From positions 1 through 34,864 of IMG/VR virus record IMGVR_UViG_3300003322_000611: 34,864 bases of DNA, one strand, 5' to 3'. Of this stretch, positions 423 through 28,173 are shown piece by piece (within the stretch, counting starts at the first letter, position 1; each line of letters begins with the position of its first letter). Below the pieces are notes generated by a model, which was not told the DNA's origin, ran no database searches, and saw only the letters and a list, made by a program, of their open reading frames with translations. Made by a program: the position numbers and the translations under genes. The DNA comes from a virus.

Positions 423-1048
423 GCGCTTTTAAATTGCGGTAAGGTTATAACGCCGCGCCTTACCAGTTCAAAAAATGAAAGGCGACACGCGGCCACGTCG
501 TTACCCGCGTCGTGCGCGCCTTCAAAACTCGAATTGAATAAGCATTTATAAAGCTCTTCTAAACGCGGCCATTTATATGGCTGGCGGGAATTGAACCGGC
601 CACGGTTGGGAAATGGCACTTTACAAAAATCAACGGTTGTTTCCATGGTGCAAATTTTCGCCCGGGCTGGGTTGGGTTTTGCTTTCTTTTTGTAACGTAT
701 CATTTCAGCGCCTAAAATTGGGTAATCAAAACCCAGGTTGTGCGCTACCAGTATGTCCGACGCGTCCAGGTGGCTAATAAATTCGTCCAACACTTCCGGC
801 ATGGGCCGGCCCTTTGCCTGGTTCTCTTCCGTGCTATAGCCGTGTTTTATCCAGAATTCCTCCCTGGGTATTTCCCAGCCATCTGGCTGAATAAGGAATT
901 TACCGGCGCCATTTACCTGGCCGGTTTCTAGGTCGGCGCGCTCCCAGGCTAACTGAATAACCCGCGGCCAATTGTTTAGGTCCTGCATGGGCGCCTTGTA
1001 GTTCCTGGGCGTACCGGTTGTTTCCGTGTCGAAAAATGTTGCATTCAT
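419..1048 (-). CDS. DEDDh 3'-5' exonuclease (DnaQ / Pol III epsilon-like)
   Basis: 209 residues with all three motifs of the DnaQ-like exonuclease superfamily: ExoI FDTETTG (D7, E9), ExoII AHNLGFD (D108) and ExoIII HDAGND (H179, D184), the last marking the DEDDh subclass. Such enzymes remove nucleotides from DNA or RNA 3' ends using two metal ions. No polymerase domain is attached, so it is a stand-alone nuclease. Context (initiator, SSB, YqaJ exonuclease) suggests phage DNA replication or repair, or host nucleic-acid breakdown. Preceded by a GC-rich hairpin and coupled by ATGA to the next gene. Family assignment is secure; exact substrate is unknown. Confidence 0.9.
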   Translation of the reverse strand: MNATFFDTETTGTPRNYKAPMQDLNNWPRVIQLAWERADLETGQVNGAGKFLIQPDGWEIPREEFWIKHGYSTEENQAKGRPMPEVLDEFISHLDASDILVAHNLGFDYPILGAEMIRYKKKAKPNPARAKICTMETTVDFCKVPFPNRGRFNSRQPYKWPRLEELYKCLFNSSFEGAHDAGNDVAACRLSFFELVRRGVITLPQFKSA

Positions 1049-1066
1049 GTTGTGAGCTTTTTAACT

Positions 1067-1134
1067 GGGCGGCCAGCCCGGCTGCCGCCCGTACATCTTA
1101 AAGCTGGCATTTTGCAGGTTTATGCCAAACCTGC
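1067..1134 (-). other. Two hairpins in the 119-nt leader of the exonuclease gene
   Basis: The gap 1049-1167 has no gene. It holds an inverted repeat with arms 67-73 and 84-90 of the 1000s (GGGCGGC / GCCGCCC) and a second 8-bp stem 1114-1121 / 1127-1134 with a 5-nt loop. Neither is followed by a good U tract on the minus strand, so they look like mRNA-stabilising or translation-control hairpins rather than terminators. Confidence 0.45.
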
Positions 1135-1167
1135 CGGGCACTCTTCTGCTTATTCGGGTTTTAATAA

Positions 1168-1974
1168 TTATTCGGCAGGCTCTTCAATTTCACCCCCTGG
1201 CGCGTCCGCGGATTGCGCCACTTTCTTTTTACGGCCACCTTTGGGCTTTGCGGGTGGCAGCGCGGGCGTGTTGGGTGTTTCGTCCAATACTTCCGCTTCC
1301 TCATGATCGGCGGCCGCCACGCGCTTCATGGCTTCCGGGTCAGCGGGTAAAATTTTAGCCGTTGATTCCTGGCGTTTTTTATTCAGTTCAAAATATTCCT
1401 CTGTAACGTCATGCAGGCCTTTAGTATCGGACTTAAAAACGGGCTTTTCCGGTTCCGCAATCTGCATTTTGGTAACCGGTTTATCTTCGAACATGTTTAA
1501 CTGGCCATCGGTACCACGCTTTACACCTTCATAATACTTGTGCAACTCTTCATCAACACGCGTTAACCGGTCGCGTAGGTCGTCCATGAAGGTGTAGCGG
1601 GTTTGTTCGCTTTCTTCAAAAAGGTAATAGGGGGTATTTGAATTATAGGCCTTCCCATTCCATAACAGCCGGGTGCCGGTAATAGTTACGCCTTCATTAT
1701 CGCCGCCAATGGAGTAACTGGAAACTTTAAAACCCTCGATCAATTCGTCCTTATAGTTGGCAATATCCTTAACCGATTTTAAAGGTATTTGTCCGGTCAT
1801 AACCGCAAAGTGAATTATTAACGCGTCGAATGCCTTTTTTAAGTCCGGGTGAATGGGGGCGTTAAAAACTTCGCTACCGCTTGATTTGGTGCCATTTTCG
1901 GCCGTTTTGGTAAAGGAAATTTCAACCTTTTCCCCTCCCTTTACCAGTTTGGCCTTGTCAATAGTTAACAACAT
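1168..1974 (-). CDS. Phage protein of unknown function, acidic tail
   Basis: 268 residues. The first 150 or so look like a folded alpha/beta domain; the last 100 are low-complexity, rich in Glu, Lys, Pro and Ala, with a basic GGRKKK patch near the C-terminus followed by an acidic end (GGEIEEPAE). I do not recognise the family. Start at 1974 overlaps the stop of the upstream 98-codon gene by 17 nt, consistent with one operon running from the promoter at 4214. Likely an early DNA-metabolism accessory protein by position only. Confidence 0.7.
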   Translation of the reverse strand: MLLTIDKAKLVKGGEKVEISFTKTAENGTKSSGSEVFNAPIHPDLKKAFDALIIHFAVMTGQIPLKSVKDIANYKDELIEGFKVSSYSIGGDNEGVTITGTRLLWNGKAYNSNTPYYLFEESEQTRYTFMDDLRDRLTRVDEELHKYYEGVKRGTDGQLNMFEDKPVTKMQIAEPEKPVFKSDTKGLHDVTEEYFELNKKRQESTAKILPADPEAMKRVAAADHEEAEVLDETPNTPALPPAKPKGGRKKKVAQSADAPGGEIEEPAE

Positions 1975-2254
1975 GTTTTTTGGTTTTTATTATGAATTTT
2001 CTAAATAAAAGCAGCTCCTTTGATAGTTCGTTTTCGGGTTTGTAGGTCCTAAAATTGAAAATAAATTGACGTTTTTTCATATCTCCATGATCTGACACCC
2101 GTATCAGTACGCCAAACATTTCCAGGTAGGCGCTTTGGCCGGTGAACTGTGAAAATGTTATAGTATAATCAACTGAAAAATAGTTCAATACACCTATAAC
2201 GCGGGATAACAGTTTATTAAAGGCGTTACGCCTTTTTTTTCCGTAACTCTTCAT
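1958..2254 (-). CDS. Small basic phage protein, unknown function
   Basis: 98 residues with a strongly basic N-terminus (MKSYGKKRRN) and basic C-terminus (KTKKHVVNY), aromatic-rich middle. No recognised domain. It overlaps both neighbours (29 nt with the upstream 119-codon gene, 17 nt with the downstream 268-codon gene), which supports its reading frame. A nucleic-acid-binding role is possible from charge alone. Confidence 0.6.
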   Translation of the reverse strand: MKSYGKKRRNAFNKLLSRVIGVLNYFSVDYTITFSQFTGQSAYLEMFGVLIRVSDHGDMKKRQFIFNFRTYKPENELSKELLLFRKFIIKTKKHVVNY

Positions 2255-2585
2255 CTTGTTTTCGGCTTTCGGTTATGGCTTCCTTACTTTCACCATACTT
2301 TACCAGGTAACGGCTAAGGTCTTCCATCATGCCGTCCATTGTTTTGGCCCTGTTTATTATCTCGTTTATCCGGGCTTCGTGGTCAACCTTTACACTTACT
2401 TTGTCGGTGTATACGTAATCAATGCCGGGCTTTATGGGGTTGCCTTCCTTGTCTTTGATAATGCCGTTGTAAATCAGTTGGCGGCCCTCGCAGGTCTTTT
2501 GCTCTTCCTGTTCCTCCCAGGCTTCGGCCAGCAATGGCAAAAGGCCGTCAATAAGTTCGGCCCTTTTATCTGCTAATAGTATCAT
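2226..2585 (-). CDS. Small helical phage protein, unknown function
   Basis: 119 residues, largely helical and charged; Lys-rich C-terminus (ELRKKKA). Contains no motif I recognise. Lies 48 nt downstream of the 515-codon coiled-coil gene, with a GC-rich hairpin between them, and overlaps the next gene by 29 nt. Belongs to the operon led by the promoter at 4207-4214. Confidence 0.65.
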   Translation of the reverse strand: MILLADKRAELIDGLLPLLAEAWEEQEEQKTCEGRQLIYNGIIKDKEGNPIKPGIDYVYTDKVSVKVDHEARINEIINRAKTMDGMMEDLSRYLVKYGESKEAITESRKQDEELRKKKA

Positions 2586-2599
2586 AAGCGAAGGAATAA

Positions 2600-2623
2600 G
2601 GCCGGACGTAACGCCGCCCGGCC
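2600..2623 (-). other. GC-rich hairpin between genes
   Basis: Inverted repeat GGCCGG / CCGGCC (2600-2605 / 2618-2623) directly upstream of the ATG at 2585. The downstream tract on the minus strand (TTATTCC) is too mixed for a strong terminator. It matches a recurring habit of this genome of placing a GC hairpin just before a start codon. Confidence 0.4.
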
Positions 2624-2633
2624 AGGTTTAAAA

Positions 2634-4181
2634 TTATTGAATGTTGTCTAAAACCAGTGTAAGATCCTCCACGGCGCCAGCCACGGAACGATCGAAAGCG
2701 GCAAAAGCCTGCTGTAACTTATTATCGGAAATTTCTGGCTTTTTACCCATGGCGGCGGCAAAATTGCGCAACCACTCATTTAACCGGTCTCGATCTGAAA
2801 GGGCAGCCTGTCGGGCGGTTTCGGCTTCCTGGTCTTTGCGCTGCTTGATCTGGTCCTGCATTTTCAAACCGTTTTCCAGCTCCAACACAAGACCCGCCAC
2901 TTCCATGGCCCAGGGTTCCGCGTCAAAGTTTTCCAGTTGGCTTTTGGTTACAAAAAGCGGCGCAATGTCGGTATAGTTAAAAAGCCTTTTAAATGAGCCG
3001 TCCGCTTGTTCCTTCATGCCAAAGTGCGCGAATAATTCGGCTTTCCGGTTTACTATCATGTTGCGGCGCTCTTCTGCCTCTTTGCGGTCCTTTTCAGCCT
3101 GTTCCAGCCGTTTTAATTCAGCCCGTTCCTTTTCCTGGTCTTTGGCCTGTTGGGCGCCTTTCAGCTTTTTAACCTCTTCCGTAACGTTATTTAATTCGGT
3201 TTCCCAGTCCTGGCCTTCCAGGGTTTCCACTTTTGCCCGGTGAATAATAAAGTTGCCACAATCCAGGGTTTTGAACTCCCACACATGCGTGCCAAAGTTG
3301 TAGAACATGCCCAGCGCTTCCAGGTGGTAGGCCCTGGCCTTTGTCCTAGCTTCCATGGCTTCCTTCTTTTGGCGGTCGATCGCTGCCTGCTGCTCTTCCA
3401 TCTCCCTTTTTTGAGCGTCCAGCTTTTTCTGCATCTCTTCCTGTTCTTTGCGTTGGGCTTCCAGGCGGTCGGCCTCTTCTTTTTTCTTTCGTTCCTCTTC
3501 CGCTTTGGCGGATACAATAGTGGCGTTTTCCTGCGCTACCCGCGCCAGGAATGTGGCATAATCTTCGTCGGTCATGGTTTTAAGGGTAACCACGTCCATG
3601 CTTATAGTCGCCCCAATGGCGTAATAGTTGCCATTAAAGGCCATTCCGTTGTCCAGCAATTCAGCCACACGCCCCTGCAGGCGCGCCTGGGCTTCCCGTT
3701 CAGCCTTTTGCTTTATAGCCTCTTTTTCGGCTTCTATGCGGTCCAGCTCTTCCTTTAGCGGGGTTTCAACCTCTTCCAAAAGTTCGGTTAAATCGCGCTT
3801 TTCCTTATCAATAGCCTGGGTAATTTCCAGATAATCGGCTTTAATAACCTTATGTTTTTTATCCACTTCCAGGCGCTTGTTGCGTACTTCCTGCCATGCC
3901 TCTTTTACCTTTTTTTGGCCTTCCTTGTCGTCCACGCCGGCAATAGTAAGGCCCTTATACAATTCCTTTTTTTCAGCAATCCAGGCACGGCCCACGTCAA
4001 AGCGCGCCACTTCCTGGGCGGCTTTTTCTTTTGTTGTTAATTGGGCCGGTGGCTGCATAATGACCGGGGGTGGTAATTGGGGTATTTCTTCAATCGGCAG
4101 ATCAGTAGTTTTGTTGCCTTCAATAAGCTGGGCGCTGGGTTTTTTTGCGCCTTTTTTTGCTGTTGTTGTAGCTTTTGCCAT
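2634..4181 (-). CDS. Coiled-coil protein with three copies of a small domain
   Basis: 515 residues. Residues 85-165 and 220-280 are long charged coiled coils, as is 345-375. Between them I see three related segments at about 171-216, 283-334 and 379-433, each with the pattern R...L...GM, an aromatic strand, an Ile, then L.....W/Y...L..V. The N-terminal 50 residues are Lys/Ala/Pro-rich and probably flexible. Coiled-coil proteins of DUF1351-like type sit near recombinases in other phages; similarity here is suggestive only. Its own promoter (TATATTTG at 4207-4214) with a pair of operator palindromes shows it is a regulated early gene, first of the leftmost operon. Function unknown; a DNA-processing scaffold is a guess. 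Confidence 0.8.
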   Translation of the reverse strand: MAKATTTAKKGAKKPSAQLIEGNKTTDLPIEEIPQLPPPVIMQPPAQLTTKEKAAQEVARFDVGRAWIAEKKELYKGLTIAGVDDKEGQKKVKEAWQEVRNKRLEVDKKHKVIKADYLEITQAIDKEKRDLTELLEEVETPLKEELDRIEAEKEAIKQKAEREAQARLQGRVAELLDNGMAFNGNYYAIGATISMDVVTLKTMTDEDYATFLARVAQENATIVSAKAEEERKKKEEADRLEAQRKEQEEMQKKLDAQKREMEEQQAAIDRQKKEAMEARTKARAYHLEALGMFYNFGTHVWEFKTLDCGNFIIHRAKVETLEGQDWETELNNVTEEVKKLKGAQQAKDQEKERAELKRLEQAEKDRKEAEERRNMIVNRKAELFAHFGMKEQADGSFKRLFNYTDIAPLFVTKSQLENFDAEPWAMEVAGLVLELENGLKMQDQIKQRKDQEAETARQAALSDRDRLNEWLRNFAAAMGKKPEISDNKLQQAFAAFDRSVAGAVEDLTLVLDNIQ

Positions 4182-4206
4182 AAAAATGTAATGATTTATT
4201 TACGGG

Positions 4207-4214
4207 CAAATATA
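4207..4214 (-). promoter_or_regulatory. Bacteroidota-type promoter -7 box
   Basis: TATATTTG matches TAnnTTTG. It lies 26 nt from the ATG at 4181, the same distance as at the promoters of the genes starting at 14511, 13065 and 9009. Two operator-like palindromes lie immediately upstream. Confidence 0.65.
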
Positions 4215-4221
4215 TCAAAAT

Positions 4222-4245
4222 AGAAACATTCCCGAAATTATTTCG
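4222..4245 (-). promoter_or_regulatory. Tandem operator pair, 11-bp offset
   Basis: Plus-strand sites AGAAA-CAT-TCCCG (4222-4234, imperfect) and CGAAA-TTA-TTTCG (4233-4245, perfect palindrome) overlap by two bases and are offset by 11 bp, one DNA turn. They lie in the region expected to contain the -33 element of the promoter at 4207-4214. Same family as the sites near 9041, 13121 and 14546. Confidence 0.6.
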
Positions 4246-4255
4246 GCCTTATTTT

Positions 4256-4651
4256 TTAAACTATTTCGACATTTATTTTATGTATTGCCAACATTAAGGC
4301 TTTTTTAAGGCGGAAAACCGCCAGGCCTTCTGTGGCTTCGCTCTTTACATCTTTCACCCGAAAAGTGCCATCCGGGTAGTATAAAACAAAATCGGCCTCA
4401 TATGTACAGATCAAAACCCCGTTAACGATTAACGGAAACGATACATGGCATTCGATTTTAGTAATTTCACCGGCTTTTTTAAGCATTTTGCAGCGGCCGT
4501 AATACTGGCTTTCCTTTTTGCTGTCGAACTTGATACCGTCCACAACCGTGGGCGTGTTGTTGTATTTTAGGCGGGGCGCGGTATTTTTTTTACGCTGTTC
4601 CTGTTGGTAGTAGGCCTGATATTGCTCAGGCGTCCAGCTTTCCTGTTTCAT
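4256..4651 (-). CDS. DUF1064-like PD-(D/E)XK nuclease-fold protein
   Basis: 131 residues from the ATG at 4651. The DUF1064 pattern is visible: FDSKKE with the conserved Glu near residue 50, YEADFVLYYPDG (Asp near 91) and VKDVKS (D-x-K near 104-106), then a Leu/Lys-rich helix. E...D...DxK is the PD-(D/E)XK nuclease arrangement. The family is common in phage replication regions. A longer frame upstream to 4705 exists but adds an unlikely N-terminus inside the previous gene. Overlaps the preceding gene by 26 nt. A structure-specific or junction nuclease role is inferred from fold and place, not shown. Confidence 0.8.
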   Translation of the reverse strand: MKQESWTPEQYQAYYQQEQRKKNTAPRLKYNNTPTVVDGIKFDSKKESQYYGRCKMLKKAGEITKIECHVSFPLIVNGVLICTYEADFVLYYPDGTFRVKDVKSEATEGLAVFRLKKALMLAIHKINVEIV

Positions 4652-5345
4652 TGTTTTTAAATTTTTGTCGTAAGTCGGACCCAATACCAGAAATTGCACC
4701 GGCAACGCTGGTTAGTTTATAATCCAGGTCGTTACCGGCTGCCCGATCTTCTGGCGTGTTATACACCTGTTTTGTTGCAATGTGGGGCGCCTGCACTTCC
4801 TGGCGCTCAATTTCCTGTTCCTGCATGGCTATCTTCGTATCCCGCCGTTCGGCATAATAGGCGTCGGCCATTTCCGTAATGGTGGTCAGGTCAATACGTT
4901 CGTAAACTTTTACCAGTTTACCCCTTTTTGCAAGGGCAAACATCATTGCATAATCTTCAAGGCGAAAATTTCCCGCCTCTTCCATCAGCATGGCGGCAGC
5001 TTCAAGGATCTGATCCTCGTTCATATTCCTAGCCACGTTAATACTGGCGCAATAATCCCGGACCATTACGGCAATAAGCAGCAATACAACCGGCTGCCCG
5101 TTATCTTTTATGAGGTCCCTAATTTGCGGGTAACGAACGACGCCCAGGTAATCCGGTTTCCCCTCAGGAAATAACTGTTTTACCGCCATACCGTACGCCA
5201 GCTTTGCCACCTGGCGCTCTTCCGGCGTTTGTTTATCATTGCCCAGCGCCACCATACACTGCCGCAATTGTGTGTGCAAGGCTGGCGGTTGATACGTTGC
5301 CACCTGTTGGCCCACTGTTTCCGGTTTGCTTTTTTGAATGCCCAT
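4626..5345 (-). CDS. Replication-region protein, possible helicase-loading accessory
   Basis: 239 residues, mostly helical. A conserved-looking core near 120-165 includes FRLEDYAMMFALAKRGK and a Tyr-rich helix, a pattern I associate with proteins encoded beside replication initiators in Bacteroidota mobile elements. No Walker motif is present, so it is not an AAA+ loader. Start at 5345 gives a 110-nt overlap with the initiator; an internal Met at 5255 would cut this to 20 nt, but the N-terminal residues look like genuine protein. Helicase loading is inference from position only. Confidence 0.65.
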   Translation of the reverse strand: MGIQKSKPETVGQQVATYQPPALHTQLRQCMVALGNDKQTPEERQVAKLAYGMAVKQLFPEGKPDYLGVVRYPQIRDLIKDNGQPVVLLLIAVMVRDYCASINVARNMNEDQILEAAAMLMEEAGNFRLEDYAMMFALAKRGKLVKVYERIDLTTITEMADAYYAERRDTKIAMQEQEIERQEVQAPHIATKQVYNTPEDRAAGNDLDYKLTSVAGAISGIGSDLRQKFKNNETGKLDA

Positions 5346-21076: not shown

Positions 21077-24000
21077 TTATATTATTGTGTATAAACCTGG
21101 TTGTGTTGTTATTGTATCGCTCCAATATATAACCTGAGTACCAAAACAATCGGTTTCATTATGGTAAAATTCATAATTCGAGCCTCCAAATAAATCGAAT
21201 TGTGTGCCGTTGACCGCCTGGGTGTAATCGCTGGAAGTCGGTGACCCTGACAGGTGGCCGCGGGTTATCCTGTAATTTACAAACAGGCCCAGGCCCGAAA
21301 CATCCAGGGGGATAGTGCCCGCACTGTTGGCATAGAAAAACAGCCTATAAATAGCGGTATTGCTTTCACCTAAATATTCAGGTCCCTGGCTGCATTCACC
21401 ATAAATAAAGCCATTATTTACATTGACCTGCTGTAACTTAACATATACGTCAGGTAAAACGCGGATTGTAACCGTTGCGGTATCGCTTCCGCTGCCGTTG
21501 TTGGCGGTGTAAACAAATGTATCAATACCGGTAAATCCAGACGGCGGGAAATAAGTAAATGAGCCATCCGACGCCATGGCAACACTTCCGCCGTTCGCCG
21601 TTGCAATAGTTCCGGCGGCCGCGGTCAACGTTCCTACGCCCGTGGTATCGTTACTCAGGACGCCAGGCGCGCCAATGCTTAAACTTTGGTTACGTCGGGT
21701 AACATAAATACCGTCGTCATTGGCAACCGGGTTGTTAGGGTCCCTTACATCAATGGTCACGGTGGCCGTGTCGGTTAGTCCTGGCGTGTCAATGATCGTA
21801 TAAGTAAACGTATCAATACCCACATACCCGGTCGGCGGTGTGTAGCTAAATGAGCCGTCAGCATTTACTGTTACCGTTCCGCCCTGGGCGCTGGCCGTGT
21901 CGTAAGTGTCCAAAGTAAATGCAACGTCATCGCTATCGTTTGCAAAAACGCCAGGCGCCGAAATGTTCAGCGTTATATTTTTTGAAGCTATGTAACTGTC
22001 ATTATTTGCCACCGGGGCTGTGTTGGGCGGCCTCACTGTAATAGCTACCAGGGCGTTATTACTAACCTGGCTCCAATCGTCTTTAATGTTATACAAAAAA
22101 TAATCGTCGCCCGTGTACCCGGTCGCTGGCGTATACAATACGGTGCCATTGAGCTGTACCACCGCGGTGCCGTGCATGGGCGCTAAAACAATGGTCGGAA
22201 AACTAAGCGTTGCGCCTGCATCGGGGTCGTAATCGTTACCCAGCACATTGATGAAAAGGGCAATATCTTGGTTAGTAATAACGGTATCGTTTACGGCCAC
22301 CGGCGCCGCATTTTGGGTTAACCCCTGATCTGCCGGGTAAAGCAGATCAACTTCTAGGGTTTCGTTCTTGAAACTAAATGTTGCTTTGTCCACCGTACCC
22401 TGGCCCAGCGCCGTGGTTATAATATCATCCGGATTAAAGGCATCCCCACAGCACAACGGGATGGTTATTTTTTCGCCTTTTTTGGTTGGTTTGGTACTGA
22501 AAAAAGTGGTTGTTTGGTAATTCATTACCCCCACACTGAGCGGCCGGTCCCACTTGTGGTAGTCCCTGTGAAGTTGTGCCCAGGCAAGTGAATTGTTAAG
22601 GCTGGCGCCGCCTAATATGGACGGTTCAGAAATAATAAAATAGTTGGTGCCGTCGTAATCGGCAGCCACAAACACAAAGCCGTCGTCGCTCACAACCTTA
22701 CTATCTGGCTGCGGGTTGCTTAGGCATAATTCCACATCGGTGGTAACCTTATCAACGGCATATGTCTTAATTGCATCCCGGGAGCTTTGCGCCACGCATC
22801 CGCCGCTGTAGGTAATCGGGGCGCCCTGAAAATCGCCAAAACCGGCCTCCATATACTTAAATTCTTCGCGCGCGGGTATGTCTTCGTTTTGGTAATTGTA
22901 TTTCCGCTTTCCAACCATGTACGGCGCCCAGCGTGGCTGGGTTAGGTCGAAACCCTGGTTTTTTGAGAAATACGAAACGTGTTCCATCCTGATAATGTTA
23001 CCCACTACCCGCCAACGTAGGTTAAACATATTTATCAGGGCTTCAAAAAGTTTTTCCCAGCTTATCAGGGCTTTGGCGGCGTTGCCGGTCACTGTGGGAC
23101 GCTTTACGTCCGACTTTTGAAACAGGGTTATAAAACGGGTTTTCGAGCGCTGGCCGGTTACGTAGTTAATAGTACTTACAATGTCGGGGTTGATCTGGAA
23201 AAAGTTTGAAACAAACGTTTTGCCTGGGCAAAATGAGTTTACAAACATGTTAATAACGTCGGCCAGGGGCACGCCGTTGTCAATGGCTACGTTTGTGGTG
23301 GTGTCGCCTATTATGCTACACGTCCAGTCTGTTTCCTCGTAACCGCTGCCATAGTTGGGCACCGTAAAGACGCAATTAAACAGCCGGGCCGCCCGCGCAT
23401 ATTTCTGGTTTCCGCCTGGGCAGGTGTCCTCAACTAAAATCCAATCCGGGCCAGGTGAAGGAAACCCGCACGCCACGGTAGTAACTTCACGGGCCCAGCT
23501 TGTGGACGTATTACAATCATAAACTCCGCCACCTATATAAGATTTAATAAAATGTTGATTATAGACTACCCAGCCCTGTGAATCTGGTGTACCGCTGCCA
23601 CCCCATTGGCTGTTGTTCATACACGCGGGGTCGGTATCGCTCCCGCTTCCGCTGGTGCTGTAGGTTACTTTTTCAATCGTAATGTTAGTGGGGTTAATTA
23701 AAACGGTGCGGCGTATACCTATATTTTGCAGTAAATTAAGTTCGGTACCCTTGTTTTCGTCAAAACATTGTTGCTGCTTTATGTCGTCTAACTTTATTTC
23801 GAGCTGGCAGCGGTCCAGGTCCCAGGTACCGTCGTTGTTGCTCATTCGCCCGCTGAACCATGGCACCCAGGCCGAACCGCACCAACGCTCTACGGTAATA
23901 TTCACAAAATCACAGCGGTAAATTGATCGTTCGAGCTTTAAAAGGTTTTGGTAAGCGCTGCCGGTAAATACTATTTTGCTGGGCAACTCGTTTTTATAAT

Positions 24001-24124
24001 CCAACTTTCCGCCAACCTCCCGGTTCCATTCTATTGTAAAATTACTTTCGCCCAGGGGCTGCACTTGCAGCACTCCCAGGCGGTTAGTAACTACGTATCG
24101 AAATTTATTAGTTACGGTCTTCAT
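21077..24124 (-). CDS. Large tail tip/hub candidate with three cadherin/Ig-like (tandem-95) repeats
   Basis: 1015 residues. Residues 1-600 form a Cys- and Trp-containing structural region without a motif I can name; place after the tape measure gene suggests a tail tip or hub. Three repeats of about 96 residues begin near 605, 701 and 798, each with the pattern APVAxxD...LxxD....GTVxxxxxGxxxYTPxxGYxGxDxFxYxIxD, the tandem-95 / cadherin-like Ig fold known from adhesins. About 125 C-terminal residues follow. Coupled to the tape measure gene by ATGA (24121-24124). Repeats likely mediate surface contact or extend the tip. Confidence 0.75.
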   Translation of the reverse strand: MKTVTNKFRYVVTNRLGVLQVQPLGESNFTIEWNREVGGKLDYKNELPSKIVFTGSAYQNLLKLERSIYRCDFVNITVERWCGSAWVPWFSGRMSNNDGTWDLDRCQLEIKLDDIKQQQCFDENKGTELNLLQNIGIRRTVLINPTNITIEKVTYSTSGSGSDTDPACMNNSQWGGSGTPDSQGWVVYNQHFIKSYIGGGVYDCNTSTSWAREVTTVACGFPSPGPDWILVEDTCPGGNQKYARAARLFNCVFTVPNYGSGYEETDWTCSIIGDTTTNVAIDNGVPLADVINMFVNSFCPGKTFVSNFFQINPDIVSTINYVTGQRSKTRFITLFQKSDVKRPTVTGNAAKALISWEKLFEALINMFNLRWRVVGNIIRMEHVSYFSKNQGFDLTQPRWAPYMVGKRKYNYQNEDIPAREEFKYMEAGFGDFQGAPITYSGGCVAQSSRDAIKTYAVDKVTTDVELCLSNPQPDSKVVSDDGFVFVAADYDGTNYFIISEPSILGGASLNNSLAWAQLHRDYHKWDRPLSVGVMNYQTTTFFSTKPTKKGEKITIPLCCGDAFNPDDIITTALGQGTVDKATFSFKNETLEVDLLYPADQGLTQNAAPVAVNDTVITNQDIALFINVLGNDYDPDAGATLSFPTIVLAPMHGTAVVQLNGTVLYTPATGYTGDDYFLYNIKDDWSQVSNNALVAITVRPPNTAPVANNDSYIASKNITLNISAPGVFANDSDDVAFTLDTYDTASAQGGTVTVNADGSFSYTPPTGYVGIDTFTYTIIDTPGLTDTATVTIDVRDPNNPVANDDGIYVTRRNQSLSIGAPGVLSNDTTGVGTLTAAAGTIATANGGSVAMASDGSFTYFPPSGFTGIDTFVYTANNGSGSDTATVTIRVLPDVYVKLQQVNVNNGFIYGECSQGPEYLGESNTAIYRLFFYANSAGTIPLDVSGLGLFVNYRITRGHLSGSPTSSDYTQAVNGTQFDLFGGSNYEFYHNETDCFGTQVIYWSDTITTQPGLYTII

Positions 24125-27100
24125 CCCTTTTTAATTTTGGTTGTTTTGTTGCCCTCTTTGGTGTAAAAATGGGTATCGTCTTCCCAGCGTTCCACGCGCG
24201 CTCGTTCCTTGTCGGCCAGATACTTAACGTTTTCGCTTATGGCCAACACATCGCCGCTTATATCAGTCCCGCGACTTTCGCTTAATAAGCTGGTTTGGCG
24301 GTAGTCGTCGCGTTCTCGAACAATGCGTAACACCTTTTCCGGCGCGTCGGTACTTAACCGGATGCCCAGCCCTTCCAGCATATCCCGCAGCGCGTCTTCA
24401 TTCATGCCGGCCAGATCATCGTTATTAATCGCTTCCAATAAGTCCGCATATTTGGCCGTGCTGCTTTTGTTGGTCACGTATTCGCCGCCCTCCAATTCCA
24501 CCACGCCGCCGCCATCGATTGCCCGGTATTTACGGCCGCCCTGGGTGTGTGGTTTACCATCGATGTAACCACCGCCACCAAACGCCTGCTTTTGGTCATT
24601 AACAAGCTGGAAGGCCTTCACTTTGGCAGTAATAAATGCGCCGGTCATTAGGGCAATGGTAGCAATTGCCAGCGGCACGCCTACAAATGGAATAGCTGCC
24701 AGGGAATTGAAAATTTTAGCCGACGCCGTTATGAGGTTGGACGCCTGAACCGCGGTGTCTATAACCAGTTGGGCCTTCTGTAAGGCAATTTGTTTACGTT
24801 GCAGCTCTTCGGCCTGTTTTACTTCCTCTTCGCGGGCCTTTTTCTTTTCGTCAATTTCGGCCTGTATAGCATCTACGTTGTTGGCCAGGCCTTGCTCTCT
24901 TAGGTCCTTTTCCTTGTCGAGCTGCTCTTCCAGATCGTCAATACTGTCGTCAATTTGATCAATGGCTTCCTTTTTCTTATCAATTTGCCGTTGGTACTGT
25001 TCGACAATAAAACCGGTAATCTGGCTAATACTGTCCAGCATTTGCTTGGCCGCGTCCTGCACGGCCGCGCGCTGCTCTTCGGTAAGTTCACCCAGGCCTA
25101 ACAGGTCGAACCAGTCCACTCCGCCGTTGGCCTTGCTTTCGGCTTCCACGGCCTGGCCTAACGCTTTTTTAAGTTCCTGTACTGTTTTGGTAGCTTGTAA
25201 AACAACGGTGGAATTTTCGGCATTACCCTGGTCTAGTAACGCCTGGCGGGCTTGTTCGGCAAACTTGATTTTAACCTTTAATATTTCGACCTGTTTTTTC
25301 TCTTCCAGGCCGGGCAGATCGGGTAAAAATTTGGTGGCCGTTTCCACTTCCAGGACCGCCCGCTCTTCCTCTTTGGCAATGGCTTCGTTGGTAAATTTAT
25401 CCTGCGCTTTTTTCTGTTCCCTGACCTGGGCGTCGTTCAACTGGGCTATAAGTTCATCCCGTAGCGCGGTTTCGTTTTTAAACTGTTCCTTTATTTCGGC
25501 TTTCTTTTGCTCATATCCCAGGCGTATGGTTTCGATCTCTTTTACAATGCCTTCCTCTCGGGCCTGTATGGTCAGTTCCTGGGCTTTTAACTGAATGGCT
25601 GCAGTGTCGGTGGCCTCTTTGGCGTTAATGTCGGCCAGTTGTTTGGATAACCCGGCTTTGATGGCTTTAATAGCGTCCTGTTTGGTTTTTTCAGCCTTTA
25701 CACTCAGGGATTTTTCGGCCTCCAATTGGGCAATTTGCTGGTTTGCCGCCTGCGTAACCTGGGCGCGCTCTTTGGCGTAAGCGTCTGTAATGGCTTCAAT
25801 TCGGGCCTTTTCCAGTTCAGCGGTAAACTTTATTTGCTGTTCCAGCACCTTTTTACGCTCTTCGGCCTCTTTTTTAGCGGCTTCAGTCTGCTTTTTTTCC
25901 AGTTCTGTAGCCTCTTTAACCCGCTGGCCATCCCGTTCAATTTTCTTTATCTGTATTTCGTTAGAATCGTCCGCGATCTGCTGCTGGCGTTTTATTAGTT
26001 CGTCTTCCAACTTTTTATTGTCTTCCGCTGACAGGAGCCGGCGCTTATCCTGATCGTTGTACTGCTTTAAAAATTCATCAAAAGCGGCGCGCCGTAATGC
26101 CAGGCGTTCCTGTAAGGCTTTACCCTCTATCGTTGTAACCTCACTTTCCGCTTTGCCGGCGGCTTTAGCCTGGGCCACCTGTAGATCCGTACGGCGTTTT
26201 AAACTGGCTTCGTCTAGGTCCAATAAAAGTTTTTGATCTTCTAGGGCGTCGTTCAGGCTCTTTGTGGCCTTTTCCGCGTCGTTGCTGCTACTGCTGAACG
26301 CTATTAAAGCGGTAACCAGGGCCGCAATACCTACCAGGATGGCAGTAACGGGGTTAGCCAGCAAAGCGGCGGTAAAGCCTTCGGTGGCGGTTGTGGCGGC
26401 CACTGTCGCGCCAGCTTCGGCGCCTTCCGCTGCTGCCAGGGCTGTAGTGGATGCAACGGCCCCCGTTTGAGCACGTGACATAAGTAACACACTCAGGGTG
26501 CTGTCCTTATTCAACGCATTGGCAACGGCCTGAATGCCTTGTAATACCGCCATTGCGCCCGTAACCTTTTGAATGGTTTTATTTACCTCTTCATTTTCGC
26601 CACCAAACAGCGCGGCCGCTCCCTGGGCTGCTGCAAACCCGCCGGCTAACGCGGTCATAGCTTCCACGCCGGCGTCTATGTATTTGGTGTCACTGGCCAG
26701 CACACGCACGCACGCGGAAACGTCCCCGATCTGGTCCTCCAATTCACCCGCGCGGACGGCCATATTTATAAACTCCTGGCTGTCGCCGTGGCCTGCTAAC
26801 TCCATTTCCGCCATGGCTGCCTTCAGTTCCCGTAATTGGCCCTTTAGGCTCTTTTGTTTGGTTTCGGCACCTCCCGCCGCTTCGCCCAGGCCTTCCAGGA
26901 AACCGTTGGCGATCTCAATCTGCGCGTTTAAGGCCTGCCACTCTTCACTATTGGGGTCTAGTTGTGCCAGTTGCTTCTGCGCCTCTTCCAATACCTGGTT
27001 TAATACCTTCAATTCGTCGGCGCCATCGGCTAATGCTTTTTCGAATTGTTCAAGTTTTGCGGCCTCAATATTAAACTTTATGGGCTTGTTAGCGTTGGCG

Positions 27101-27432
27101 CTGAACTTCGCCAGCATATCCGAAAACTTTTGCACCTTCTTTTCAAAATCCCCGCTGGTGGTGTTTTTACCACTCAGGGCCGCACCCAGTTCTTTACCCA
27201 GGGTTTTGGCGGCTTCCCGGAGCTGGGCGGCTTTTTCGGCGTCAACGGTTAGCTGGGTGTTTAGCTTTTCGCCTGCGGTGGCGGCATCGTTAAAGCCCTT
27301 TTGCATACTCTTAGTTGCTTCTACAACATTGGCGGCGGTTTTGTCAATACCGCCGTCAATGTTATTTAACTCCTTAAAAAATGGGGCTGAATCAATACCG
27401 AACGGGATCACGTAGTCGTTATTTCCTGCCAT
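24121..27432 (-). CDS. Tail tape measure protein
   Basis: 1103 residues from the ATG at 27432; the longer frame to 27495 lies inside the chaperone extension and is less likely. The longest gene of the window, with long Ala/Glu/Lys/Gln-rich coiled coils over most of its length and two hydrophobic segments (about 345-375, ANPVTAILVGIAALVTALIA, and about 910-940). Length, composition and place directly after the frameshifted chaperones are typical of tape measure proteins, which set tail length and enter the cell with DNA. The C-terminal part carries a Gly-rich GGGYIDGKPH stretch. Starts 14 bases before the chaperone stop. Confidence 0.9.
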   Translation of the reverse strand: MAGNNDYVIPFGIDSAPFFKELNNIDGGIDKTAANVVEATKSMQKGFNDAATAGEKLNTQLTVDAEKAAQLREAAKTLGKELGAALSGKNTTSGDFEKKVQKFSDMLAKFSANANKPIKFNIEAAKLEQFEKALADGADELKVLNQVLEEAQKQLAQLDPNSEEWQALNAQIEIANGFLEGLGEAAGGAETKQKSLKGQLRELKAAMAEMELAGHGDSQEFINMAVRAGELEDQIGDVSACVRVLASDTKYIDAGVEAMTALAGGFAAAQGAAALFGGENEEVNKTIQKVTGAMAVLQGIQAVANALNKDSTLSVLLMSRAQTGAVASTTALAAAEGAEAGATVAATTATEGFTAALLANPVTAILVGIAALVTALIAFSSSSNDAEKATKSLNDALEDQKLLLDLDEASLKRRTDLQVAQAKAAGKAESEVTTIEGKALQERLALRRAAFDEFLKQYNDQDKRRLLSAEDNKKLEDELIKRQQQIADDSNEIQIKKIERDGQRVKEATELEKKQTEAAKKEAEERKKVLEQQIKFTAELEKARIEAITDAYAKERAQVTQAANQQIAQLEAEKSLSVKAEKTKQDAIKAIKAGLSKQLADINAKEATDTAAIQLKAQELTIQAREEGIVKEIETIRLGYEQKKAEIKEQFKNETALRDELIAQLNDAQVREQKKAQDKFTNEAIAKEEERAVLEVETATKFLPDLPGLEEKKQVEILKVKIKFAEQARQALLDQGNAENSTVVLQATKTVQELKKALGQAVEAESKANGGVDWFDLLGLGELTEEQRAAVQDAAKQMLDSISQITGFIVEQYQRQIDKKKEAIDQIDDSIDDLEEQLDKEKDLREQGLANNVDAIQAEIDEKKKAREEEVKQAEELQRKQIALQKAQLVIDTAVQASNLITASAKIFNSLAAIPFVGVPLAIATIALMTGAFITAKVKAFQLVNDQKQAFGGGGYIDGKPHTQGGRKYRAIDGGGVVELEGGEYVTNKSSTAKYADLLEAINNDDLAGMNEDALRDMLEGLGIRLSTDAPEKVLRIVRERDDYRQTSLLSESRGTDISGDVLAISENVKYLADKERARVERWEDDTHFYTKEGNKTTKIKKG

Positions 27433-28173
27433 CTTGTTGGGTTTTTTGTTTGTAATAATCGCGTTCCTTTTCAACGCTGGCGTGCCATAGATCAAATAAT
27501 TTCCAGAACTCGAAAACGTCGGTTTTTTTTATGCGGTCGTATTCACTTTTAATGCCCCCGGCCATGTTCCACCATGTTTCCCGCCACATGTTCCGGGTTG
27601 CTTGCACTTGTAAATAAACAGGCTTTGAAGCGTCCAGCCCTTTGTTCTTTTTTTGGTTCTTTAGCTGGCCGCTATTGCGCTGCCCTGCTGGCCCGAAATG
27701 ATGCGGGTAACTGTCTGATAGATTTCTATATAACCATTTATTGAACTGGACGCAACATGAAAAAAATCCCGCATATCCATTTTTTCCGCCTTCCAGTCGT
27801 TTATTTTTTTGGTGATCATATCCTGCGTGAACGCGCTTCGGTCTTCGTCTTCCGCGTTGATGTACAGCGCGCATATTTTCAATACAAGGGGCTCGCGTTC
27901 GTGTAGCTTGCCCATACCTCGAATAAGATCATTAAGCAGGACCGCGGCGTCGGCGGGCTTTTGCTTGTTTAACAGGTTGTAAGCGCTTTGCATCTTATCA
28001 AAAAACGCTTTGAAGGTTATACCATACCCCATTTCTTTTTCAAGTATTTGAGCTTCGGCATACCGTTCGATTGTCAGGCCGCCCTCGATAAAATACCGGG
28101 TTCCGTTTGCCTCGAAAATCCCGGTTTCCAGATCAATGCGTTTTAATGGTTCTTTTGCTTTCAGTGCCTCCAT
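27419..28173 (-). CDS. Long tail assembly chaperone made by -1 frameshift (gpGT-like)
   Basis: A -1 slip at the T7 heptamer 27760-27766 joins codons 1-138 of the short chaperone to 113 codons of the overlapping frame, giving about 251 residues. The extension is Lys/Gln-rich then aromatic (FWKLFDLWH), ending QDGRK. No start codon of its own is needed. This two-product arrangement before the tape measure gene is conserved in long-tailed phages. Predicted only from sequence. Confidence 0.7.
27661..28173 (-). CDS. Short tail assembly chaperone (gpG-like)
   Basis: 170 residues, helical after an N-terminal beta segment (IFEANGTRYFIEGGLTIERY). Stop at 27661 within the frame of the longer product. 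Position directly upstream of the tape measure gene and the -1 overlapping frame identify it as the gpG-type chaperone that loads on the tape measure during tail assembly. Sequence similarity to a named family was not established. Confidence 0.7.
   Translation of the reverse strand: MEALKAKEPLKRIDLETGIFEANGTRYFIEGGLTIERYAEAQILEKEMGYGITFKAFFDKMQSAYNLLNKQKPADAAVLLNDLIRGMGKLHEREPLVLKICALYINAEDEDRSAFTQDMITKKINDWKAEKMDMRDFFHVASSSINGYIEIYQTVTRIISGQQGSAIAAS
27760..27766 (-). other. Slippery heptamer for -1 frameshifting
   Basis: Seven T residues read GA-T-TTT-TTT in the zero frame, an exact X-XXY-YYZ site. After a -1 shift reading continues as TCA TGT TGC to the stop at 27419. Other A-runs upstream (near 27790 and 27815) do not fit the heptamer rule. 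Confidence 0.75.

Follow-up and report, generated by a model that had tools for sequence, protein, structure and literature searches.

Conserved T_TTT_TTY slip site and probable -1 frameshifting in the tail assembly chaperone gene of an unannotated phage lineage, a likely distant relative of Bacteroidota phage chaperones

Recoding of tail assembly chaperone genes is of a known kind. The G gene of bacteriophage lambda has the heptamer GGGAAAG at its slip site. In the account given in PMC5009743, lambda makes a short default chaperone, gpG, and a -1 fusion, gpGT, which adds a T domain, from a gene that adjoins the tape measure gene. For phage SPP1, a putative -1 shift at UUUUUUC has been described for the products 17.5 and 17.5*, with 112 of 173 residues shared (PMC6316719). 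In Flavobacterium phage 1/32 (F132_37 and F132_38; KJ018210), the chaperone likewise lies before the tape measure gene, and the two products are annotated by a joined frame.

The locus studied here lies in a phage sequence of 34,864 nucleotides (IMG/VR record IMGVR_UViG_3300003322_000611), the whole of which is referred to as the window. It shares the general arrangement of lambda, in which however the heptamer is different and the shift falls near the 3' end of G. As far as the SPP1 source describes it, the putative shift of that phage, like that of the window, falls within a chaperone gene that directly precedes the tape measure gene, and well before the short stop, even further upstream of it than in the window; the two are likened by description, SPP1 belongs to another host group, and the window has TTTTTTT with 32 codons after the slip. 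The chaperones of phage 1/32 and of PHROG 8914 in Bacteroidota phages are collinear with the G and T products of the window by profile comparison, but their recoding site is poly-A and in most members the unshifted product is the long form. What is new here is a well-supported case in an unannotated phage lineage, and the unusual part, seen by comparison, is that members of one family appear to have exchanged both the recoding device and the default form. The features of the window locus are as follows.

27661-28173, minus strand: zero-frame ORF of 170 codons (170 aa), predicted short default product, a G-like tail assembly chaperone
27760-27766, minus strand: slippery heptamer T_TTT_TTT, in frame GA-T_TTT_TTT-CAT (zero-frame codons GAT TTT TTT)
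27419-27766, minus strand: -1 frame after the slip, FF plus 113 codons and stop, T-like domain of a predicted fused product of 251 aa
27661-27759, minus strand: dual-coded overlap of the zero-frame C-terminus (32 codons and stop) with the -1 frame
27699-27715, minus strand: 17-nt block GACAGTTACCCGCATCA within the overlap, identical across four close relatives
24121-27432, minus strand: tail length tape measure gene (phrog_20660, E 3e-31), with its ATG at 27432-27430

The in-frame reading of the heptamer had been proposed in a sequence-only reading that named no strand, and it is borne out at these coordinates on the minus strand. The same reading had the -1 extension of 113 codons reach the tape measure start and had placed the slip site 32 codons before the short stop. 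Both statements hold: after FF the -1 frame begins SCCVQF... and runs to a TAA at 27419-27421, so that the -1 ORF extends 14 nt into the tape measure gene directly downstream, and the 32 codons are all sense codons. The tape measure start is kept in three relatives (L002-L004). The tail region also encodes a 1015-aa protein (21077-24124, minus strand) with three Big_9/cadherin-like repeats, which matches phrog_19383.

Relatives of the chaperone were obtained through a tape measure protein search (L002, L003) and through alignment searches (L004, L013-L017, and L116-L122). Together with the window, ten IMG/VR lineages make up the set of 11 lineages, which extends down to about 31% identity; four contigs with near-identical proteins (L014-L017) were counted once, repeat loci of the same contigs were dropped, and L003 is cut at a contig end and lacks its first ~50 residues. 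At the homologous FF codon pair, T_TTT_TTY is present in 11 of 11 lineages, as T_TTT_TTT in eight and as T_TTT_TTC in three (L002, L004, and L116); the L016 group has a run of T9 at the site. The conserved element is thus T_TTT_TTY and not T7 as such. The codon before FF always ends in T (GAT, GGT, AGT, or TCT) while its residue varies among D, G, and S, and across these genes T is the third base in only 11-40% of codons. Likewise, the first Phe codon is TTT in every lineage, though five of these genes use TTC equally or more. The -1 frame stays open for ~100-116 codons past the site in all 11 lineages, but in 10 of them it is open only from 9-45 nt before the heptamer, and the stretch that would allow a working shift in all 11 spans -9 to +46 nt around it. 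Loss of the heptamer with both frames kept, the outcome named beforehand as evidence against a shift, occurs in none of these lineages. The distance from the slip site to the short stop varies from 13 to 58 codons, so the position far upstream of that stop, while correct for the window (32 codons), is no peculiarity of it, SPP1 being similar. An A7 run at 27804-27810 was also considered as a slip site and rejected, as L002 retains it, L003 has AAGAAG, and L004 has CGTAAA.

Gene order around the chaperone pair was noted for some of these contigs. In L013, the tape measure gene (517-3687) lies upstream of the pair (4001-4725), the reverse of the usual order. In L016 (3968-8167), genes for a DNA methyltransferase, a PAPS reductase, and a ParB-like protein come after the pair on the opposite strand, and the tape measure gene is not among the five genes tested in this 8.4-kb locus. 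L015 is unlike L014 and L016 downstream of the pair.

Substitutions among four close relatives show constraint on both frames in the overlap, as judged by codon position. Upstream of the site, pairwise differences at zero-frame positions 1/2/3 number 129/99/265 (480 compared at each), and in the overlap they number 35/49/61 (174 each), so that third-position variation falls from 55% to 35% and second-position variation rises from 21% to 28%. In the block that encodes T only, differences at -1-frame positions 1/2/3 number 52/35/113 (252 each), the third position varying most. The 17-nt block GACAGTTACCCGCATCA was considered as an RNA element and rejected, since dual coding is enough to account for its invariance; it differs in more distant lineages.

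The programmed -1 shift in the tail chaperone gene put forward in the sequence-only reading is supported by the heptamer conservation, the constraint on both frames, the place just before the tape measure gene, and the collinear single-ORF homologues described below, and it remains the best reading by a wide margin. Very probably, a tail assembly chaperone pair of the gpG/gpGT type is made by -1 ribosomal frameshifting at T_TTT_TTT. Most ribosomes would read the 170-codon ORF and release the short protein G. In a minority, the Phe-tRNAs in the P and A sites would re-pair one base back, and these ribosomes would then read 113 codons in the -1 frame to give the 251-aa fusion GT, the T part of which would end at the start of the tape measure gene. 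If lambda is a guide, G in many copies and GT in few may associate with the tape measure protein and bring in tail-tube subunits. We infer that it is the ribosome and not RNA polymerase that slips, and the efficiency and function sketched here have the same standing. Tandem re-pairing is favoured because the conserved phase T_TTT_TTY, including the T of the preceding codon, is what it requires, and re-pairing of two Phe-tRNAs there fits every lineage. In E. coli constructs described in PMC5009743, A_AAA_AAG was far more shift-prone than U_UUU_UUU, and this weaker shifting counts against the frameshift reading. No common stimulatory RNA structure was found in the 110 nt downstream of the site across the 11 lineages, in which fold z-scores range from -5.0 to +1.2 and only two fall below -3 (a first set of four sequences gave -0.1, -2.0, -3.1, and -3.0). 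The 11 natural variants of one site offer material for determining what the ribosome in this host group needs in order to slip.

The same two products could arise if RNA polymerase slipped on the T run and added a base, with ribosomes reading the altered message normally. T7 is a mild polymerase slippage site, polymerase slippage is also possible on the T9 of the L016 group, and the distant A10 family described below is of the type thought to use it. The rule of thumb stated in PMC3711429 is Tn with n>8, however, and the six Ts followed by C in L002, L004, and L116 fall short of the usual length, which makes polymerase slippage less likely. What is conserved, moreover, is a reading-frame phase together with the T of the preceding codon, as tandem tRNA slippage requires. 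We regard polymerase slippage at this site as unlikely.

It is less likely still that T is an independent gene whose translation starts within the overlap by internal initiation or termination-reinitiation, without a frameshift. Possible -1-frame starts do occur before the heptamer, an ATG at 108 nt in the window and a TTG at 24-30 nt in L002, L117, and L119, but in seven of the 11 lineages the -1 frame has no ATG, GTG, or TTG from the stop that precedes it to the stop of the zero-frame ORF. The -1 protein is conserved in these seven all the same, and in single-ORF homologues the G and T parts are fused. There is also the case of a chance heptamer followed by an untranslated -1 ORF. A heptamer in a single genome is weak evidence because such motifs are frequent: the window's 42 main genes contain 83 of the form X_XXY_YYZ, and T_TTT_TTY occurs at six of their 27 FF codon pairs (T7 runs show no enrichment, with 35 seen in the window vs 54 expected from shuffles). 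The comparison across lineages nevertheless counts strongly against chance, as the heptamer is conserved in all 11, together with the -1 protein and a dual-coding pattern, and this explanation is the least probable of all.

Searches of protein families with the window products gave no direct match. Neither G nor the 151-aa -1-frame ORF (P0002) had a match in PHROGs at E<=0.1, unlike the L026 and FpV9 chaperones, which match PHROG 8914 directly. NCBIfam gave no match for G and the extension, and Pfam gave none above the curated cut-off for G. Weak Pfam matches of G (E 0.04-0.06) lie below the curated cut-offs and were taken as chance, as was a one-off Bacillus_HBL match (E 0.006) in one of six members. 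No match was obtained in viral contigs with P0001 or the extension alone as query, in genome contigs with tape measure or extension alignments, or in phage records by tblastn with G or T. AlphaFold2 gives window G (pLDDT 72) and the L026 chaperone (pLDDT 90) the same order of elements, namely two strands, then four helices, one strand, and two more helices; residues FF 137-138 of window G and KKK 132-134 of L026 both fall in the last helix. Among solved structures, neither model has a match beyond common helical arrangements (the best PDB row, Z 5.2, rmsd 4.3, and 57 aligned, is an unrelated protein), and no match of the window chaperone to lambda gpG was found in sequence or fold. The top BFVD match of window G, A0A088C3C2 (E 2.8e-3), ranks third for the Bacteroidota chaperone model. 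The three BFVD entries significant for L026 rank 1, 13, and 14 for window G, and two of them agree in length with the phage 1/32 products.

The window tape measure protein has distant matches in phages of Bacteroides, Parabacteroides, Croceibacter, and Elizabethkingia. In six of eight such records, a single ORF of ~250 codons, as long as the fused GT, lies just upstream of the tape measure gene and has an A9-A10 run at about codon 132; of the other two, P2559S has two ORFs, and the last begins with the tape measure gene itself. An IMG/VR search with an alignment of the six chaperones, using peptide patterns without the run, led to 146 confirmed stretches, and in 80 of the best 80 of these (L026-L105; 46 representatives below 80% identity), an exact A10 occurs at codon 131-132. 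Elsewhere in these ORFs lysine is encoded by 800 AAA and 812 AAG codons, the 80 ORFs have no second run as long as A9, and 283 kb of flanks contain two A9 and no A10. Both wrong frames close within a few codons of the run: the protein would end by residue 139 in 78 of the 80 loci with one A fewer and in 71 with one A more, and within 160 residues in all remaining cases in either direction. To judge by this pattern, A10 looks like a site of programmed slippage at which the long form is the default and the short form would come from the slip. In the open-licence literature searched (titles and starts of abstracts), no description was found of the A10 run or of T_TTT_TTY in Bacteroidota phage chaperones.

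A profile comparison of 53 A-run chaperones with 11 window-lineage proteins gave P 9e-6 for G (96 columns) and 1.1e-5 for the T part (53 columns), with G and T in the expected order; none of 100 column shuffles was as good for either. With six window-lineage sequences the values were 6e-4 (G) and 1.4e-3 (T). A first profile-profile comparison for T had been negative, and an HMM search with the A10-family profile against window-lineage ORFs gave no significant match to G, its best hit (E 0.02) being a T ORF. The single-ORF Bacteroidota chaperones, at ~255 aa, are collinear with the fused window product, and T aligns with their C-terminus. The window lineage would thus be only a distant relative of the PHROG 8914 chaperones. 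On balance, we lean towards the view that one family kept its two-product output but swapped recoding device and polarity. On the window side, the short form would be the default and the long form made by -1 ribosomal slippage on T_TTT_TTY; in the relatives, the long form would be read in frame and the short form would come from slippage, probably by polymerase, on the invariant A10. The comparison provides a direct test of whether tail assembly depends on the ratio between the forms, with either one as the default, and of whether slippage by polymerase can stand in for slippage by the ribosome within a single gene.

Among named phages, A10 is found in PDS1, B40-8, TCUEAP2, P2559Y, and PD691P4, and also in UZM3, BF486P1, BF698P3, and AS73P1; BF503P2 has A9 and FpV9 has A11. 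In three, the unshifted product is the short form.

L106:1483-2222: phage 1/32, A10 in another phase, long frame -1
L020:2226-2991: P2559S, A8, long frame +1
L108:1501-2254: BF8P1, A11, long frame +1, possibly a homopolymer sequencing error

A long frame at -1 in phage 1/32 and at +1 in P2559S and BF8P1 suits slippage in either direction. PHROG 8914, represented here by L026:934-1704 and L107:1492-2241, carries the label 'virion structural protein, head and packaging'. This label looks wrong, because several of its members bear the annotation of a tail assembly chaperone and are located before the tape measure gene.
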